Positions 24,048 to 32,871 of a stretch of 35,097 bases of DNA are shown in pieces. The stretch is from positions 1-35,097 of the forward strand of contig CAIXPS010000168.1 of assembly GCA_903921365.1 (NCBI GenBank), in the 5' to 3' direction. The position numbers were made by a program, and so were the translations under genes. Each line of letters starts with the position of its first letter. Position 1 is the first letter of the stretch. This DNA is from an uncultured bacterium. Its GTDB lineage: Bacteria; Chloroflexota; Anaerolineae; J036; Brachytrichaceae. A model generated the notes under the pieces. It saw nothing but the letters and a program-made list of their open reading frames with translations, was not told the origin of the DNA and searched no databases.

Positions 24048-24641
24048 CTAACGGACTCCTGGGAGTGACTCGAACGCGGTAATCTTGTCATCCATCGTCA
24101 GCACGTAGCCGATCTCGTCAATGCCGTTGAGCAGGCAAGTCCTTGAAAATCCGTCAATCGGAAACTGAACCTTGCGACCATCAGGCAAAGTGAGCATCTG
24201 TGCGTTGAGATCGATGGATAGTGCGGTATCCGGGTCTTCTTCGCACAGGCTGAACAACTGCGCATGCGTGTCTTTGTCCACGATGATCGGCAGCAGCCCG
24301 TTTTTCAGCGAGTTGTTGCGGAAGATGTCGGCGAAGGAGGTGCTGATCACGGCGCGGAACCCATATCCGGTCAACGCCCACGGCGCGTGTTCGCGCGACG
24401 ACCCGCAGCCAAAGTTATCGCCCGCCAGCAGGATGGCGCGCCCTTTGATCTCGGGCTGGTTCAGGATGAAATCGGGCTTGGGCGTGCCGTCGCCGTCGTA
24501 GCGCCAGTCGGAGAACAGGTTGTCGCCCAGCCCAACCTTATCGGTGACTTTTAGGAATCGCGCCGGGATGATCTGGTCGGTGTCCACGTTCTCGTTCGGG
24601 AGCACGACGATCTTGCTATTAAATGCTGTGTACTTGTCCAT
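24048..24641 (-). CDS. leuD: 3-isopropylmalate dehydratase small subunit
   Basis: A 197-residue subunit that with LeuC isomerises 2-isopropylmalate to 3-isopropylmalate in leucine synthesis. It shows the swivel-domain marks NVDTDQIIPARFL, the hallmark GDNFGCGSSREHAPWAL (about residues 71-87), and FADIFRNNSLKNGLLPI. The length is typical. ATG 24641 is chosen for GGAGG at 8-nt spacing; the frame continues upstream through leuC but without similarity. It lies 14 nt after leuC, and the partner gene of the nucleotidyltransferase starts 10 nt after its stop, so it is not the operon's last gene. Confidence 0.95.
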   Translation of the reverse strand: MDKYTAFNSKIVVLPNENVDTDQIIPARFLKVTDKVGLGDNLFSDWRYDGDGTPKPDFILNQPEIKGRAILLAGDNFGCGSSREHAPWALTGYGFRAVISTSFADIFRNNSLKNGLLPIIVDKDTHAQLFSLCEEDPDTALSIDLNAQMLTLPDGRKVQFPIDGFSRTCLLNGIDEIGYVLTMDDKITAFESLPGVR

Positions 24642-24655
24642 AAATGCGCCTCCGA

Positions 24656-26086
24656 TTATCTCAGCATTCCAAACGGGACTCCGAGCAGTGTGCGCACATC
24701 TGTAACGACGCCGGTGACTGCCGATGCTGCGGCGGTGAGTGGACTGGCCAGGAAGGTGCGCCCGCCCTTGCCCTGCCGCCCTTCGAAGTTGCGGTTGCTG
24801 GTGCTGATGGCGTACTGTCCCGGCTGGAGTTGGTCGCCATTCATTGCGATACACATGCTGCACCCGGCCTCGCGCCACTCTGCGCCAGCCTCAGTGAACA
24901 CGCGGTCGAGTCCTTCGGCTTCGGCCTGCTTCTTCACCTGCGCCGATCCAGGCACAACCATGACGCGCACGGTGGGGCTCACGCGCCGCCCCTTTAACAC
25001 AGCCGCTGCATCGCGCAGGTCGCTGATGCGCGAGTTGGTGCAACTGCCGATGAAGACGACGTCAATGGCCTGTCCCAGCAACGGTTGATTCGGCTGTAGC
25101 GCCATATAGCCCAGTGCTTTGGTCAACGCATTGCGCTGGCTCAAGTCACCGATTTGCGCGGGATCGGGCACGCGCCCGGTGATGCCGATACCCATGCCCG
25201 GATTAGTGCCATAGGTGATCATCGGCTCAAGCGCATCCGCGTCAAGCGTGAAGGTCGCGTCGTACCGCGCGCCTTCATCGCTGGGAAGGTTGCGCCACGC
25301 GCTCACGGCTTTGTCCCAGTCCGCGCCTTTAGGCGCAAATTCGCGCCCCGCGATGTATTCAAAGGTCGCGTCATCGGGCGCGATCATGCCGGCGCGCGCG
25401 CCGCCCTCGATGCTCATGTTGCAGACGGTCATGCGCTCTTCCATGCTCAAGCGCCGAATCGCAGCGCCGGTGTACTCAAACACAAAGCCGGTGCCCGCGC
25501 CAATGCCGTACTTGGCAATGATCCCCAGGATGATATCCTTCGCCCCCACGCCTTTCTGCAAGGCGCCATCGACGCGCACCTGGGCAGTGCCGGGTTTGCG
25601 TTGCAGCAGACACTGCGTCGAGAGCACCATCTCGACTTCGCTCGTGCCGATGCCGAATGCGAGCGCGCCGAATGCGCCGTGCGTGCTGGTGTGGCTATCG
25701 CCGCACACAATCGTCATGCCAGGCTGCGTCAAGCCCAGTTCCGGCCCGATGACATGCACGATGCCCTGTTTCTCGATGTTCTGGCGCAGCCCGTAAAGCG
25801 TGATATTGAAGTCGGCGGCGTTCTTCTCAAGCTGTGCAATCTGCTTCGCCGCCATCTCGTCCATGATCGGCAGGTCGCGACTGTAGGTCGGGATGCCGTG
25901 ATCCATCGTGGCGAAGGTGCGGTCGGGACGGCGTGCTTGAATGCCGCGCTTGCGCAGCCCTTCGAACGCCTGCGGTGATGTCACCTCGTGCACCAGGTGC
26001 AGATCGATATACAGGACAGCCGGGCTGCCGGGGTCTTGCGCAACCACGTGCGCGTTCCAGATTTTTTCAAAAAGGGTCTGAGGCAT
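24656..26086 (-). CDS. leuC: 3-isopropylmalate dehydratase large subunit
   Basis: A 476-residue aconitase-family enzyme, with the length of standard LeuC. The [4Fe-4S] cluster ligands are all present: C349 in GSCTNSR, and C409 and C412 in GCSMC. Other signatures are the substrate-site stretch [21 protein letters not shown], the ATMDHGIPT start region, and [20 protein letters not shown] near the end. ATG 26086 ([14 protein letters not shown]) is the family start; the frame continues upstream to 26296 but overlaps the methyltransferase. It begins 7 nt after the methyltransferase stop. Catalyses the second step of leucine synthesis with LeuD. Confidence 0.96.
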
Positions 26087-26093
26087 GATCTCT

Positions 26094-26852
26094 CTAGTTT
26101 CCTGATAGCCGTTTCCGGCCTCCAAATACTGCCAACTCGAATATTTTAAAGAAACAGTCCACATCCGTAAAGCCAATCTCGCGCAGCCATTCGCATTGAT
26201 CTTCAACAGGCGCGAGGATGTTTGCTTTCTTGTCTTCCCGGTAATAAAACTCACTGGCAATTTGTTCGCGCGTGAGCCCGGACCCCTTGCGGTCATGGTG
26301 CTTTACCAGTGAATCGATGAAGCACTCGTCAAACAACGTTTGGCCCCACGCGGTGTGTGACGCCACGTGTTCCATGTTTACAAACACCCCGCCAGGGACG
26401 AGCAGGTCATGGATTTCTCTGTAGACGCGGCGTTTACGCTCATCGGGTTGATGATGGATCGAAAAACCTGAGACAATGGCATCAAATGGCCCATAGGCGC
26501 TGACCATAGTCGCCCAGGCGGGGTCTCCATAGTCAGCCTGGATGAAGGACAGTTGTGACGCGCGCGTCTTCAGCCGTTCGCGCGCAGCCTGCAACATCGG
26601 CTCAGAGAAGTCCAGCAATACCCCGTTGCTCCGGGGAAATCGCCCCAATAAGGCCGCACCCAGTACGCCATCCCCGCAACCGATGTCCATAAAGCGCAAT
26701 GTTTCCGTCTGCGCGCCGATGCCGGTCTCGACCATGCGCACCATGACGTCGAGTTGCTCGGATTTAAATGGTATTACGGTGCTCACGCTGCTCAGATATT
26801 GGCTCACAATATCAGCGGACAGCCAGACTTTATCGTCACGTTCAGATGACAT
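26094..26852 (-). CDS. SAM-dependent methyltransferase embedded in the leucine operon
   Basis: A 252-residue class I methyltransferase. Motif I is [17 protein letters not shown], followed by [16 protein letters not shown], then [11 protein letters not shown], the motif IV region [13 protein letters not shown], and [20 protein letters not shown] precedes ATG 26852. It is separated from leuC by 7 nt and from the membrane gene by 23 nt, so it is an operon member, yet no methylation step belongs to leucine synthesis. Its C-terminal [25 protein letters not shown] is typical of small-molecule methyltransferases. The substrate is unknown. A second, less similar methyltransferase lies at 3956-4591. 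Confidence 0.88.
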
Positions 26853-26875: not shown

Positions 26876-27358
26876 TTATTTTGCATTATTCAAAGCCATC
26901 GTCAGCGCTACTGTGACTGCGAAACCGGCGATCGGCGCTGCGATCGCAATAGTCGCACACAGCGCGCCGCGAACCTTCGCCGGGCGCTGCGATCGCATGA
27001 TCAGCAGGCAAATCAGCGTCGCAAGCAGACCGACGATGATGCCGGTAATTTGTCCGAAGGTGACGATGGTGGTGGTGATAAACGGCAGACCGATCAACAG
27101 ATACTGCGGCGTGGTAAGCGCTGGAACCAGGTCAACCCAGTCCTCGTTGTACCAGACGCGCGGCACAAGCTCGAACATGCCCGACCGCACCTCCAGTGTG
27201 CCGCTCTGGATCGGGTAGAACGTGCCCGTCGCGCCACGAGCGCCGTGGTGCGACGGGCTAACCGGCCGTCCATTGATGGTTATCTTTACTTTCCCGCTGA
27301 ACAGCGAGCGATCGAGGCTCACCTTCTCGTTCTTGCCGGTTATGAATGTATATTTCAT
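26876..27358 (-). CDS. Small membrane protein in the leucine operon
   Basis: A 160-residue protein. The first 85 residues are polar and beta-rich (TFITGKNEKVSLDRSLFSG, KVKITINGRPVS). Then come three hydrophobic segments: QYLLIGLPFITTTIVTFGQITG, IIVGLLATLICLLIM and ALCATIAIAAPIAGFAVTVALTM. A basic loop (RSQRPAKVRG) between the second and third suggests it faces the cytoplasm. I do not recognise the family. It starts 6 nt after leuA and is followed by the methyltransferase, so it is co-transcribed with leucine genes. A transporter role is possible but not supported by motifs. Confidence 0.6.
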   Translation of the reverse strand: MKYTFITGKNEKVSLDRSLFSGKVKITINGRPVSPSHHGARGATGTFYPIQSGTLEVRSGMFELVPRVWYNEDWVDLVPALTTPQYLLIGLPFITTTIVTFGQITGIIVGLLATLICLLIMRSQRPAKVRGALCATIAIAAPIAGFAVTVALTMALNNAK

Positions 27359-27364
27359 CTATGG

Positions 27365-28975
27365 CTACTTGCTGCTTGCAGGCGCGTTTTGCTTGCGGCG
27401 CAAACCCTTGTTCAGCGCCGACAGGTACGCCTTACCGCTGGCGCACATCGTGTCGGTGTCGGCGCTGCGCCCGCTGTACAGATACTTCTTGCCATTGTCG
27501 TCGGTCATCTCGATCCGCATCGTCACGTCGGCGATGGCGTCGATGCCCGCAGTCACGGCGTGCACGTGGAATTCGGTGAGATGCGCTTCAGTGCCGGTGA
27601 TCCGATTGATGCAGTTGCAAATCGCATCCACCGGTCCGTTGCCCAGTGCGGCGTCCTGATGCGCTTCGCCTTCCTCATCCAGCAAACGCACGCTGGCCAC
27701 CGGCACGTTACCCGTGCCCGTGGTCACGCTGAGCGTGTCGAGTTTATAAACCTCGTTGACGTTCTCATACTGATCGGCCACCAGCGCTTCGAGATCGGCC
27801 TCCGTGACCACTTTCTTCTTGTCGCACAGCACCTTGAAGCGCGTGAAGGTCTGATCGAGTTCTTCGCGCGTCAACTCGTAGCCCATTGTCTTGAGCCGTT
27901 CGCTGAATGCGTGTCGTCCGCTGTGTTTACCCAGCACGAGGTTGGTCTCGGTCCAGCCCACCGTTTCGGGACGCATGATCTCGTAAGTCAACGGGTTCTT
28001 CAACATGCCATCCTGATGAATGCCGGCCTCGTGCGCGAACGCGTTCACGCCGACGATGGCCTTGTTTGGTTGCACAGCGATCGACGTCATCGCGCTCACC
28101 ATCTTGCTGGTGCGCACCAATTGGGTCGTATCAATGTTGGTCTTCAGATTGCCATAGACCTGCTTGCGCGTGTGCAACGCCATGATGACTTCTTCGAGCG
28201 AAGTGTTGCCGGCGCGCTCGCCGATGCCGTTCATCGTCACTTCCACCTGGCGCACGCCGGCGCGAATGCCTGCCAGCGTGTTGGCAGTCGCCAATCCCAG
28301 ATCGTTGTGACAGTGCGCCGAGATGATGACGTTCTCGATCCCCGGCACGTTCTTGACGATGCCTTCGATCATTGCGCCATACTCGCCGGGCGTGCAATAG
28401 CCCACCGTGTCAGGTATATTCAACGTTGTCGCGCCGGCCTTGATCGCAATCAACAGCACCTGCCACATAAACTCAGGGTCGCTGCGGCCAGCATCCTCCG
28501 GCGAGAACTCCACATCGGCGCACAGGCTGCGCGCATGCGACACCATATCGCCGACCATCTCGATACAGTCATTGCGCGAGATGCGCAGTTTGTGCTGCAG
28601 GTGGATATCACTGGTGGCGAGGAAAGTGTGAATACGCGGCTTCTTCGCCCACTGCACCGCCGCCCACGCGCGGTCGATGTCCATCTTGTTCGCGCGCGCC
28701 AGCCCGGCAATCACCGGGGCGGTGTCTGTCTGGCCAATATCCTGCGCCAGGCGCGTAACGGCCTCAAAATCTCCTGGCGAAGCAATCGGGAAGCCGGCCT
28801 CGATAATATCGACGCCCAGCCGGGCCAGTTGACGGCCGATCTCTAACTTCTCGGCCAGGTTCAGGGTTGCGCCCGGCGACTGCTCGCCATCGCGCAACGT
28901 GGTGTCAAAAAACAATACTCTGTTGTTATCGATAGTCGGGGCAGACGCCCCAGCTTTAACGTCGCTGTCATTCAT
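27365..28975 (-). CDS. leuA: 2-isopropylmalate synthase
   Basis: A 536-residue enzyme catalysing the committed step of leucine synthesis: acetyl-CoA and 2-oxoisovalerate give 2-isopropylmalate. The N-terminal TIM barrel has the [15 protein letters not shown] start (residues about 24-38), [20 protein letters not shown] with metal-binding His residues, and [12 protein letters not shown]. The linker region contains [16 protein letters not shown], and the C-terminal LeuA allosteric domain (about residues 400-525) is present, so leucine feedback inhibition is expected. Length and signatures are those of the long LeuA1 type. GAGGAG lies 8 nt before ATG 28975. A 153-nt intergenic region with inverted repeats separates it from ilvC. 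Confidence 0.96.
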
Positions 28976-29128: not shown

Positions 29129-30151
29129 TTACGCGCCGCCTTGCCCGGGCATAACCTCCTTGGGGTTCAGCCACGGCATCATCCGGCGCAGTTCAATGCC
29201 CACATGTTCGATCTGATGATCCATGTCGCGCTTGCGCATCGCATTGAAGTTCGGTCGCCCCTGCGCGTTTTCGTCAATCCAGTCCTCGGCAAATGCGCCA
29301 GTCTGGATGTCGCTCAGGATCGACTTCATTTCTTTCTTGGTCGCTTCAGTGACGACGCGCGGCCCGCTCACGTAATCGCCATATTCGGCGGTGTCGCTGA
29401 CGGAGAAGCGCATGTAGTTCAGGCCGCCTTGATAGAACAGGTCAGTGATCAGCTTCAGTTCGTGCATGCACTCGAAATACGCAACCTCTGGCTGATAGCC
29501 GGCCTCGACCAATGTCTCGAAGGCGGCCTTAATAAGGTGCGATACGCCACCGCACAGCACAACCTGTTCGCCGAACAAGTCGGTTTCAGTCTCTTCAGCA
29601 AAGGTGGTCTGCAACACGCCGGCGCGCGTGCCGCCGATGCCCTTGGCGTAGGCAAGAGCGTTCTCAAGCGCATGCCCGCTGGCATCCTGATACACGGCGA
29701 CAAGACAGGGCGTGCCTGCCCCATCCTGATAGGTGCCGCGCACGCGATGGCCGGGCGCCTTGGGCGCGATCATCGTCACATCAACGTCCTGGGGGGGGAC
29801 AACCTGGCCGTAGCGGATGTTGAACCCGTGCGCCCACATGAGCGTCTTGCCGGCGGTCATGTATGGCGCGACCTGCTCGCGGTAAACGGCGGCGGCCGGG
29901 ACATCGGGAACCAGCATCATCACGAAATCGGCAGCCTTGGCCGCTTCCGGGATGCTCATCACGGTCAACCCGGCGTCCTGCGCCTTCTTGACGCTCTTGC
30001 TGTTCTCCGGCAGGCCGACGATGACGTTGACGCCGCTGTCGTGCAGGTTCAACGCATGCGCGTGCCCCTGGCTGCCAAAACCGATGACCGCCACTGTCTT
30101 GCCTTTTAGCAAGTCGAGATTCGCATCCATATCGTAAAAAACTGTTGCCAT
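29129..30151 (-). CDS. ilvC: Ketol-acid reductoisomerase
   Basis: A 340-residue class I KARI that rearranges and reduces acetolactate or acetohydroxybutyrate with NADPH in valine and isoleucine synthesis. The nucleotide-binding fingerprint is [16 protein letters not shown], and the cofactor loop [14 protein letters not shown] has serines that usually favour NADPH. Other marks are [37 protein letters not shown], the metal-site stretch [20 protein letters not shown], and [23 protein letters not shown]. The length is that of class I. Operon position is third after ilvB and ilvN. A hairpin and a tandem repeat lie in the 139-nt gap upstream. Confidence 0.96.
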
Positions 30152-30243: not shown

Positions 30244-30272
30244 AAAAAGTGAGCAAGTTCCAACGAACTTGC
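30244..30272 (-). terminator. Hairpin with U-rich tail after ilvN
   Basis: On the minus strand GCAAGTTC-GTTG-GAACTTGC (30272 down to 30253) forms a perfect 8-bp stem, and ACTTTTTATT follows 3 nt later. This resembles an intrinsic terminator directly after ilvN and could lower expression of ilvC and the leu genes relative to ilvBN. The gap between stem and U tract and the moderate GC content suggest partial rather than full termination. Confidence 0.45.
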
Positions 30273-30290
30273 CCACCGATTCATGTTCTC

Positions 30291-30866
30291 TTACGGGTGT
30301 GAATGACCGTTGCTTGAAAAAGCAACGTCATCCTGATCGGGGACGACGTGCGCTGCGCCACGCGTCATCGCGACGCGCCCGGTGCGCACGACTTCCAGAA
30401 TACCGTAATCGTTCAGCACGTTTAGAATGCCGTCCACCTTCTCTTCATCGCCGACCATCTCGATGATCAACGTGTCCGTCTTGACGTCCACCACGCGACT
30501 CTCAAACATATCGGCCAATTGCTTGATTTCGCTGCGCTTCTGCGTATTCTCCACGCGCACCTTGATCAATGCCAGTTCGCGCACTACCGTTGGTAAATGG
30601 GTGACGTCCTGCACGTCGATGACGTTCACCAGCTTGTACAGGTTGCGCTCCACCATCGCCGCACTGGTGCGGCTGGCGTCGACCACGATGGTCATGCGGG
30701 ACACCTTGGGGTCGTCGGTTGTGCCGACGGCCAGGCTGTCAATGTTAAAGTTGCGGCGGCGGAACAGGCTGGCGACACGGTTGAGGACGCCCGGCTTGTT
30801 CTCCACCAAAGCTACGAGGGTATGTTTCTGCGCTGTCTGCCCTGAGGCGGCGTGATCTACTAACAT
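30291..30866 (-). CDS. ilvN: Acetolactate synthase regulatory (small) subunit
   Basis: A 191-residue small subunit that binds valine and activates the IlvB catalytic subunit. The N-terminal ACT domain (HTLVALVENKPGVLNRVASLFRRRNFNIDSLAVG, about residues 15-48) carries the NKPGVLxRV effector-binding pattern. The ALS_ss C-terminal domain runs from about VRELALIKVRVENTQKRSEI to LNDYGILEVVRTGRVAMTRG. It is about 20-25 residues longer at the C-terminus than minimal IlvH. The spacing to ilvB is 12 nt. The start is ATG 30866 with AGGAGACCAAAGAA upstream. Confidence 0.95.
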   Translation of the reverse strand: MLVDHAASGQTAQKHTLVALVENKPGVLNRVASLFRRRNFNIDSLAVGTTDDPKVSRMTIVVDASRTSAAMVERNLYKLVNVIDVQDVTHLPTVVRELALIKVRVENTQKRSEIKQLADMFESRVVDVKTDTLIIEMVGDEEKVDGILNVLNDYGILEVVRTGRVAMTRGAAHVVPDQDDVAFSSNGHSHP

Positions 30867-30878
30867 TTCTTTGGTCTC

Positions 30879-32612
30879 CTACTTAATCGCATCCATGCCA
30901 GTGCCGAGCGCAGCGGGTTGACGGCGAGTCATCTCGTCGAGCGCCTTGCCGGGCATCACCATCGGGAACACGTTCATCTCGGGTTCCACCACAAATTCGC
31001 ACAGCACCGGGCCGTCAGTGGCGCGCGCTTCGGCAATAATCTGGCGCATCTCGCTCTGGGTGGTTGCGCGCAGACCCTTGATGCCATAGGCGTCGGCCAG
31101 TTTCTGGAAGTTCGGCGTCCACATCTGGGTTTGTGAATAGCGTTTGTTGTGTATCAGATCCTGCCACTGGCGCACCATGCCCAGGAAGTGGTTGTTGATA
31201 ACCGCAATCTTCACGTTGAGCTTTTCCTGCACCAGCGTGGCTAATTCCGGAATGCTCATCTGGAAGCCGCCATCGCCGGCCACCGCCCACACCTCATCGT
31301 CGGGGCGACCCAGCTTGGCGCCGATCGAGGCAGGCAGTGCAAAGCCCATTGTGCCCAGGCCGCCGCTCGTGATGAGCTGATTCCTGCGCGTGTGCTGGAA
31401 ATACTGCGTCTCCCACATCTGGTTCTGACCAACGTCAGTGGCGATGGTGCATTCACCCTTGGTCGCTTCCCAGATGCCGCGGATGACATGCGGCGCGAGC
31501 AACATGTTGTCCGGCAACTCCTGCGCCAGCACATCCCGCGACTTGGTGTCATCGCGCCAGGCGTTGATCGTCCCCACCCAGTCCTTGTGACTGCCATTCG
31601 CCACCTGCGGGATCAGCGCCTGCAACACGCTCTTCACGTTGCCGACGATGCCGACATCAGTTGGAACGTTCTTGCCGACTTCGGCAGCGTCAATGTCCAC
31701 ATGGATCACCTTGGCGTTCTTCGCATACTGCGCAAGGTTTCCCGTGACGCGGTCGTCGAAGCGCATGCCAAGGGCAATCAGCAGGTCGGCATTGGCGATT
31801 GCCATATTCACGTAAGCCTCGCCATGCATCCCCATCATGCGCAGGTTGAGCGGGTGATCCTCTGAGAGCACACCAATTCCGAGCAGCGTCGTCGCGACCG
31901 GAATGCCGGCTTTGTTGATCAACTCGCACAGTTCGCCGTGCGCGCCGCCGTGTTTGATGCCCTGACCAGCCAGGATGATTGGCCGCTTTGCGGCGTTGAT
32001 CAGTGTCGCTGCATCGGTTACCAGCCCCGGTATGTTTTGCTTGTGCATCGGTTTAATGGCGCGATAGCCCTTCAGCTTGACGCTGGTGATGGGCTCATAT
32101 TCCACCGTCTGCTGCTGCACATCTTTACAGATATCAATGAGCACGGGGCCGGGGCGGCCGGATCGCGCAATGTAAAACGCCTCAGCCAGCACCTGGGCCA
32201 GTTCCTTCACATCGGTGACCAGATAGTTATGCTTTGTGACTGGAATCGTGACGCCGGTGACGTCTGTCTCCTGGAACGCATCGGTGCCAACCAGATTCGA
32301 CGATACCTGACCGGTGATCGCGACGATTGGAGAGGAATCCATCATTGCGTTGGCCAGGCCGGTAACCAGATTGGTTGCGCCCGGGCCGCTTGTCGCCATG
32401 CACACGCCGACTTTGCCCGTAGCGCGGGCATACGAGTCTGCCGCCAGTGCGGCGTTCTCTTCGTGGCGCACCAGCACGTGCCGAATGCGGTCTCGGTAGT
32501 CATACAAAGCGTCATAGGCAGGCAATATAGCCCCGCCCGGATAGCCGAAGACCAATGTGGCGCCTTGTTGTAACAACGTCTCCCAGATAATCTGTGCTCC
32601 TGTTAGCTTCAT
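30879..32612 (-). CDS. ilvB: Acetolactate synthase catalytic (large) subunit
   Basis: A 577-residue thiamine-diphosphate enzyme condensing two pyruvates, or pyruvate and 2-oxobutyrate, in branched-chain amino-acid synthesis. The catalytic glutamate E51 is in VRHEENAALAADSYARATG. The TPP/Mg motif is GDGGFQMSIPELATLVQEKLNVKIAVINN. FAD-binding and central-domain signatures include RPIILAGQGIKHGGA and ALGMRFDDRVTGN. AAGGAGAG at 8-nt spacing precedes ATG 32612. It is the first structural gene after the attenuator, 56 nt downstream of the terminator U tract, and heads the operon. Confidence 0.96.
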   Translation of the reverse strand: MKLTGAQIIWETLLQQGATLVFGYPGGAILPAYDALYDYRDRIRHVLVRHEENAALAADSYARATGKVGVCMATSGPGATNLVTGLANAMMDSSPIVAITGQVSSNLVGTDAFQETDVTGVTIPVTKHNYLVTDVKELAQVLAEAFYIARSGRPGPVLIDICKDVQQQTVEYEPITSVKLKGYRAIKPMHKQNIPGLVTDAATLINAAKRPIILAGQGIKHGGAHGELCELINKAGIPVATTLLGIGVLSEDHPLNLRMMGMHGEAYVNMAIANADLLIALGMRFDDRVTGNLAQYAKNAKVIHVDIDAAEVGKNVPTDVGIVGNVKSVLQALIPQVANGSHKDWVGTINAWRDDTKSRDVLAQELPDNMLLAPHVIRGIWEATKGECTIATDVGQNQMWETQYFQHTRRNQLITSGGLGTMGFALPASIGAKLGRPDDEVWAVAGDGGFQMSIPELATLVQEKLNVKIAVINNHFLGMVRQWQDLIHNKRYSQTQMWTPNFQKLADAYGIKGLRATTQSEMRQIIAEARATDGPVLCEFVVEPEMNVFPMVMPGKALDEMTRRQPAALGTGMDAIK

Positions 32613-32667: not shown

Positions 32668-32699
32668 AAAAAAAAAGCCCTCCATTTAGGAAGGCTTTT
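32668..32699 (-). terminator. ilv-leu attenuator terminator
   Basis: On the minus strand AAAAGCCTTCC (32699-32689), loop TAAAT and GGAGGGCTTTT (32683-32673) form an 11-position stem with one mismatch, running into nine consecutive T residues (32676-32668). It is a textbook intrinsic terminator, 20 nt after the leader-peptide stop and 56 nt before ilvB, so it must be bypassed for the operon to be expressed. Its 5' arm overlaps the segment that pairs with 32739-32745 in the antiterminator. Confidence 0.92.
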
Positions 32700-32746
32700 A
32701 TCTTTGTGAGCAGGCGCTTTAGTGAATCTGCGCCGCCGTCCTAAAC
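32684..32746 (-). promoter_or_regulatory. Antiterminator pairing of the ilv-leu attenuator
   Basis: On the minus strand TTTAGGA (32745-32739, inside leader codons 25-27) is complementary to TCCTAAA (32691-32685), extended by a G-U pair. Forming this 7-8 bp helix uses the 5' arm and loop of the terminator and so excludes it. Upstream, GTCCT/AGGAC (32772-32768 with 32742-32738) could sequester the same segment when the leader is fully translated. This gives the 1:2, 2:3 and 3:4 alternatives typical of attenuators. Confidence 0.75.
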
Positions 32747-32817
32747 GAAACCAGCTCCTGTCTGCTAAGGACTAGGAGCGAGATAACAATAATGACGACG
32801 ACTAATACTAAATGCAT
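32719..32817 (-). CDS. Branched-chain-rich leader peptide of the ilv-leu operon
   Basis: A 32-residue ORF that begins MHLVLVVVIIVISLLVL and continues SRQELVSFRTAAQIH before TAA. Residues 3-17 contain six Val, five Leu, three Ile and a single Ser, all three amino acids made by the downstream operon. The peptide itself is not expected to have a cellular role; its translation measures charged Leu, Val and Ile tRNA. Stalling in this codon block leaves the segment at 32738-32746 free to form the antiterminator, while full translation favours the terminator at 32668-32699. The start lies about 20 nt after the predicted transcription start, with AGG 8 nt upstream as a weak binding site. It is analogous to IlvL of enterobacterial ilvGMEDA, but unrelated in sequence beyond composition. 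Confidence 0.88.
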   Translation of the reverse strand: MHLVLVVVIIVISLLVLSRQELVSFRTAAQIH

Positions 32818-32842
32818 GATATGCCTGTTAACTGATGGGTCG

Positions 32843-32871
32843 TTTATACACGAGGCGCTGGGGATTGTCAA
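32843..32871 (-). promoter_or_regulatory. Sigma-70 promoter of the ilv-leu operon
   Basis: On the minus strand TTGACA (32871-32866) is a perfect -35 box, the spacer is 17 bp, and TATAAA (32848-32843) matches the -10 consensus in 5 of 6 positions. The transcript would start near 32836, leaving about 19 nt before the leader-peptide ATG. A strong constitutive promoter followed by an attenuator fits control mainly at the attenuation step. Confidence 0.85.

Follow-up and report, generated by a model that had tools for sequence, protein, structure and literature searches.

The ilvB locus and the leader that precedes it

The window, i.e. the whole stretch of 35,097 nucleotides that was analysed, carries on its minus strand a set of genes for the synthesis of branched-chain amino acids (BCAA). 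From ilvB onward everything lies on this strand, up to and including two further ORFs without assignment located after leuD. The genes, and a terminator-like site found among them, are as follows:

30879-32612, minus strand: ilvB, acetolactate synthase large subunit
30291-30866, minus strand: ilvN, acetolactate synthase small subunit
30248-30277, minus strand: terminator-like hairpin of 13 pairs with a TTTTATT tail, directly after ilvN
29129-30151, minus strand: ilvC, ketol-acid reductoisomerase
27365-28975, minus strand: leuA, 2-isopropylmalate synthase
26876-27358, minus strand: ORF of 160 aa to which no identity was assigned
26094-26852, minus strand: class I methyltransferase, substrate not assigned, between leuA and leuC
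24656-26086, minus strand: leuC
24048-24641, minus strand: leuD

The longest ORFs of leuC and leuD extend into their neighbours; most of this overlap disappears when the genes are counted from the points where homology begins, residues 71 and 80 of these ORFs, respectively. Neither tRNA genes nor Rfam RNAs were found in the window. Upstream of ilvB, the following elements are present:

32866-32871, minus strand: -35 hexamer TTGACA, separated from the -10 hexamer by 17 nt
32843-32848, minus strand: -10 hexamer TATAAA, the leader start codon being 25 nt downstream
32719-32817, minus strand: leader peptide ORF MHLVLVVVIIVISLLVLSRQELVSFRTAAQIH, 32 codons and a stop
32767-32811, minus strand: control codons 3-17, 14 of these 15 being Leu, Val or Ile
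32754-32779, minus strand: intra-ORF hairpin GCTCCT(14 nt)AGGAGC, with compensatory changes
32764-32772, minus strand: strand 1, GTCCTTAGC, in the loop of the intra-ORF hairpin
32734-32747, minus strand: strand 2, CGTTTAGGACGGCG, 5' arm of the antiterminator, within the leader ORF
32719-32721, minus strand: leader stop codon
32684-32696, minus strand: strand 3, AGCCTTCCTAAAT, 3' arm of the antiterminator and, at the same time, 5' arm and loop of the terminator
32668-32699, minus strand: intrinsic terminator, with covariation, made up of the hairpin at 32699-32673 and the T9 tract at 32676-32668

The preliminary description of this DNA had reported the TTGACA-17-TATAAA promoter, the 32-codon ORF with its 14 Leu, Val or Ile codons, and a terminator with a T9 tail before ilvB, and all of these were recovered at the same positions. 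The complementarity between TTTAGGA (32745-32739) and TCCTAAA (32691-32685) was recovered as well; the pairing exists, but its extent had been given too short, the actual antiterminator being formed by the whole of strand 2 with strand 3. The terminator hairpin counts 11 pairs, was also found by an independent search and lies 56 nt upstream of the ilvB start codon. Among the ORFs of 12-60 aa on both strands of the 35-kb window, the leader is the sole case having at least 13 Leu, Val or Ile residues out of 15. The region therefore offers the components of an attenuator: a promoter, a short ORF before the first biosynthetic gene, a terminator between this ORF and that gene, a run of codons for the amino acids produced by the pathway, and an antiterminator that excludes the terminator by sharing its 5' arm.

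Conservation, covariation and control codons

The nearest named relatives of the organism are Thermoflexales / Candidatus Roseilinea, in the class Anaerolineae, which bears out its earlier assignment to Chloroflexota. An ilvB-like match was obtained in 27 of the 28 genomes of the window's family, and in 25 the gene is a true ilvB whose upstream region could be read; an ORF equivalent to the leader, rich in Leu, Val and Ile, is found at every one of these 25 loci. TTGACA and a -10 element, with a spacer of 16-18 nt and at least 11 of 12 matches, accompany it in 24 of the 25 members. In many relatives the start codon lies only 11-13 nt past the -10 hexamer, and the leader mRNA is for this reason probably near-leaderless, with almost no 5' UTR. 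An alignment of the ilvB upstream regions of relatives had been suggested as a check on the attenuator; in this alignment the composition of the ORF, the alternative pairing and the terminator are all conserved and co-vary. A loss of the ORF composition or of the alternative pairings in relatives, named beforehand as evidence against attenuation, was not encountered. In one relative (Thermoflexales S140_20, L029), ilvB is preceded by a tandem of two Leu/Ile-rich leaders, each with a terminator and each looking complete.

In the 25 family leaders, 96.9% of the cells of the antiterminator are paired, and its covariation score was reached in 1 of 500 shuffles and in none of the slid versions. When the intra-ORF hairpin, the 1:2 pairing and the terminator were considered jointly for the same leaders, the score was reached in 0 of 500 shuffles. 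Strand 1 complements strand 2 in the window's family, with 82% of the cells paired and double changes at two pairs. Both alternative states were also scored in 13 leaders from Chloroflexota families other than that of the window: 500 of 500 shuffles were beaten by the terminator state, with double-sided changes at 10 pairs, and likewise by the antiterminator state, with such changes at 9 pairs. When the strand 2:3 duplex was compared with dinucleotide shuffles, 88 of 106 elements ranked at the 5% point of the shuffled values or lower. The 1:2 pairing of the window's family is, on the sequences compared, not general. A 1:2 pairing of control codons GTCGTCGTC with GACGGCGGC behind strand 2 was predicted by folding without a ribosome; in a synonymous-recoding test its mean rank was 21 of 100 in the window's family (modest support) and 49 of 100 over the phylum (no support), and we do not propose it as general.

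The position of the control codons was followed in 96 distinct leaders. Counted from where strand 2 begins, Leu, Val and Ile reach a fraction of 0.61-0.95 between -51 and -21 nt, then drop to 0.32 at -15 and to 0.03 at -12; the stop codon is situated at a median of 25 nt past this start. With such a placement, a stall at any of the control codons would keep strand 2 accessible, and a ribosome that has come to the stop codon would cover or abut it. The placement of the codons is thus that of an attenuator, the masking from the stop codon being only partial in a simple footprint model. The choice of codons is also biased: relative to the downstream genes, the leader core avoids CTG (0.10 vs 0.46) and GTG (0.04 vs 0.48) and is enriched in CTT (0.46 vs 0.06) and ATT (0.60 vs 0.25). 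Since Ala and Pro keep G-ending codons in the same stretch, a general base bias does not account for the avoidance of CTG and GTG. The theory of selective tRNA charging predicts that control codons should be biased (PMC1183508). The leader located before a citramalate synthase gene, cimA (L169; TIGR00977, 693 bits), reads AAIIIGII, with Ile as its sole BCAA. Citramalate synthase serves isoleucine synthesis only, and this one case goes in the direction expected for a coding adapted to each gene.

These data also bear on a different interpretation, in which the ORF would encode a conserved small membrane protein having its own terminator and the complementarity would be incidental. The 15 hydrophobic residues followed by Arg do look like a transmembrane helix, but the core of the 96 leaders, made up of 82% Leu, Val and Ile, contains only 0.6% Phe and 0.2% Met, far under the usage of membrane helices, and the restriction of the cimA leader to Ile does not fit such a protein either. 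Moreover, the C-terminal half is kept as RNA strands and not as peptide, the antiterminator co-varies across families, and the edge of the Leu/Val/Ile stretch before strand 2 is not expected from a constraint at the protein level. We regard a membrane protein as extremely improbable and retain attenuation as the function of the leader.

Proposed mechanism and extent of the controlled transcript

We propose that the element is, very probably, a classical ribosome-mediated transcription attenuator located upstream of ilvB and sensing charged Leu, Val and Ile tRNAs. The transcript would begin just past 32843 and have a very short 5' UTR, if any, ahead of the leader ORF that the ribosome enters. 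The intra-ORF hairpin (32779-32754), whose 3' end lies 7 nt upstream of strand 2, is by analogy with trp likely to be an RNA polymerase pause hairpin, and it would probably hold the polymerase until the ribosome comes. The outcome would then depend on the ribosome: (i) a shortage of charged Leu-, Val- or Ile-tRNA would stall the ribosome on codons 3-17, leaving strand 2 (32747-32734), at least 20 nt ahead, free to pair with strand 3 (32696-32684), a pairing that would block the terminator and lead to the transcription of ilvB and the following genes; (ii) with Leu, Val and Ile in good supply, the ribosome would translate across strand 2 as far as the stop codon (32721-32719), and the pairing of strand 3 with strand 4 would stop transcription at the T tract near 32668; and (iii) if no ribosome is present, strand 2 would be bound by the upstream leader sequence, termination being the default.

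In folding calculations with a ribosome on the control codons, before the synthesis of strand 4, the probability of the strand 2:3 pairing is about 1. It is 0.01 without a ribosome, owing to the pairing of strand 2 with the upstream leader sequence. With a ribosome at the stop codon and strand 4 absent, the outer 9 pairs of 2:3 still form in the simple footprint model, with a probability of 0.97, so that termination in the fed state would have to rely on steric hindrance, on kinetics and on strand 4 emerging at once. According to this model, fed-state termination is the weakest step of the proposed mechanism.

How far the control would extend along the genes was also considered. The preliminary description had presented them as an operon of roughly 10 kb, which holds for their collinearity, but the hairpin at 30277-30248 after ilvN makes a single transcript less certain. 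One 10-kb transcript is plausible. It is also possible, although we think it rather unlikely, that a working leader governs ilvB and ilvN alone, ilvC and the leu genes being uncoupled by this hairpin or by promoters of their own. The hairpin, with its 13 pairs and its TTTTATT tail 97 nt ahead of ilvC, could end or lower the read-through between ilvN and ilvC. Against such an uncoupling, all the genes are collinear and no promoter-like site above chance was found on the minus strand between ilvN and leuA. The number of terminator-like sites in the gene region is not above that of shuffled sequence.

Distribution in Chloroflexota and relation to known systems

The spread of the element was followed with a covariance model, R2, built from other families with the window's family left out. 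In the window's genome the site in the window is the single match (E 3.4e-9); no second copy of the attenuator was found there, the next match having an E of 0.1. Among 400 evenly drawn Chloroflexota genomes, 73 contain R2 matches, and 59 of the 71 sites examined precede ilvB, ilvD, ilvE or cimA or sit within such an operon; the weak sites L157, L189 and L190 resemble chance matches. R2 is strict. Of 53 Chloroflexota loci, 52 showed a leader before ilvB, ilvD-ilvB or ilvE-ilvB in a composition scan (at least 10 Leu, Val or Ile out of 15 within 3 kb upstream of ilvB), and the opposite strand of these 140 kb, taken as the antisense control, gave 0. At loci that begin with ilvD or ilvE, it is before this gene that the leader stands. 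In all, the mechanism is seen in about 20 Chloroflexota families. Among the carriers of the element is a cultured relative, Leptolinea tardivitalis (L046/L194). The Leu/Val/Ile attenuator first put forward for the organism of the window is supported, and it belongs to the phylum rather than being peculiar to one genome.

Outside Chloroflexota, the Opitutae (Verrucomicrobiota) have a related leader before ilvD, for example MNLSVALVALITVVLAILATDPNTHGRLAKATSS, with conserved Ile, Val and Leu and a terminator, located about 1.9 kb upstream of ilvB (L036, L037, L042, L045, L048, L049, L052, L059, L064 and L070). Upstream of ilvB at three loci of Acidobacteria (L051, L054, L073) there are Leu/Val-rich leaders whose ends read LRSIRPPGGSGI or resemble it, accompanied by a hairpin and by a terminator; these look-alikes were not recovered by R2 and were left out of the counts. 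Other arrangements were noted. One family (f43; L154, L171, L176, L179) has two attenuators about 900 bp apart, and at L171 a gene for a PucR/CdaR-like HTH regulator lies between both, the second attenuator being directly before ilvB. At six loci (L017, L018, L021, L022, L038, L043) the attenuator is separated from ilvB by another terminator-like hairpin, which follows a conserved GGCAANGNNGCC motif and lies about 80-250 nt before ilvB; it gave no Rfam match in L018 or L043.

Six T-boxes were found in the window's genome, at trpE, leuS, serS, valS, thrS and alaS (genes read from the translated sequence), and the T-box model RF00230 (stem I, specifier, T-box antiterminator) has no match in the window. 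Leader peptides and T-boxes had been presented at first as alternatives used by different bacteria: the Leu/Val/Ile leader is indeed present here, but T-boxes coexist with it in the same genome. In this genome, direct tRNA sensing would thus serve the aminoacyl-tRNA synthetases and trpE, and ribosome stalling the synthesis of BCAA. T-boxes at ileS and trp genes of Chloroflexi were already known (PMC2494555). At one locus (L159, genome G325) a full T-box with its own terminator (246-455) and a Leu/Val/Ile attenuator (591-721) stand in series before ilvB.

This locus, together with the ppGpp riboswitches and T-boxes that regulate ilv genes elsewhere according to the literature, could suggest that the element is a riboswitch binding a protein or a metabolite, with the ORF as a passenger. 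We consider such a reading extremely improbable, since no Rfam family reached threshold in the window, nor in 20 other loci save for the T-box of L159, and since the alternative states share short helices without a conserved unpaired core. Even with permissive in addition to gathering thresholds, the Rfam scans returned only chance matches at the level of terminators, apart from that real T-box. Ribosome-mediated attenuation remains our reading of the element. At the scale of the phylum, we lean slightly towards the view that control of BCAA synthesis by leader-peptide attenuation is ancestral to Chloroflexota and nearly universal among them, that Opitutae have a related form, that T-boxes at aminoacyl-tRNA synthetases run beside it, and that one homologous RNA was carried to ilvB, ilvD, ilvE and cimA, re-coded for each product and once stacked behind a T-box.

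Leader-peptide attenuation as a type of switch has been known since E. coli. A check of the literature had been recommended before calling the present leader new: no account of leader-peptide attenuation in Chloroflexota was found in open-access full texts, the scope of this search, but the kind of mechanism is itself known. Judging from these texts, it is the lineage and the RNA family that appear new, and the element is absent from Rfam 15. A survey of 2010 named leader peptides in Proteobacteria and Actinobacteria only, apart from a Firmicutes case that it added itself (PMC2965389); amino-acid leader peptides are described overall as mostly proteobacterial and actinobacterial, with a few in Firmicutes (PMC2965389, PMC1262725, PMC9413887), and Chloroflexi were considered too sparsely sequenced for judgement (PMC4833913). 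Short uORFs of this kind are easily overlooked by annotation. The natural set of about 100 leaders offers a direct test of the theory of control-codon placement and choice, and the presence of the attenuator and T-boxes in one genome allows two sensors of tRNA charging to be compared within one cell.

Among known systems, the T-box (RF00230) likewise senses tRNA charging and governs amino acid genes by termination, but it binds uncharged tRNA directly, without translation. The enterobacterial ilvGMEDA, ilvBN and leu leaders share with the present element Leu/Val/Ile control codons, competing 1:2, 2:3 and 3:4 helices and codon bias, but have no homology with it: the Rfam model Leu_leader (RF00512) matches only the terminator part in the window, at 25.7 bits (E 0.0022), below its gathering threshold of 50 bits. 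The ilvB-OMG and Leptospira ilvB motifs are rare ilvB-linked RNAs that were reinterpreted as BCAA uORF attenuators (PMC10272879); their peptides, unlike those described here, are also Thr-rich, and no ilvB motif was matched significantly in Rfam scans of the window and of relatives (ilvB-OMG possibly not being in the library). A caution for the present reading comes from a look-alike ilvB leader of Streptomyces coelicolor, in which codon mutations were reported to be without effect (PMC1262725). The Actinobacteria ilvBNC attenuators (Corynebacterium ilvB-II motif, PMC10272879; Mycobacterium tuberculosis ilvB1, PMC13236596) also comprise a BCAA-rich uORF, an antiterminator competing with an intrinsic terminator just before ilvB, and a start codon that lies close to the 5' end of the transcript or lacks a ribosome-binding site. 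In Corynebacterium glutamicum the leader is made without such a site, according to a reference listed in PMC10272879, and for M. tuberculosis ilvB1 the same logic of stalling versus arrival at the stop codon was proposed, with experimental support (PMC13236596). The Chloroflexota element differs from these in sequence and helices, has a much longer control run (14/15) and a conserved intra-ORF hairpin, and is found at ilvD, ilvE and cimA as well.
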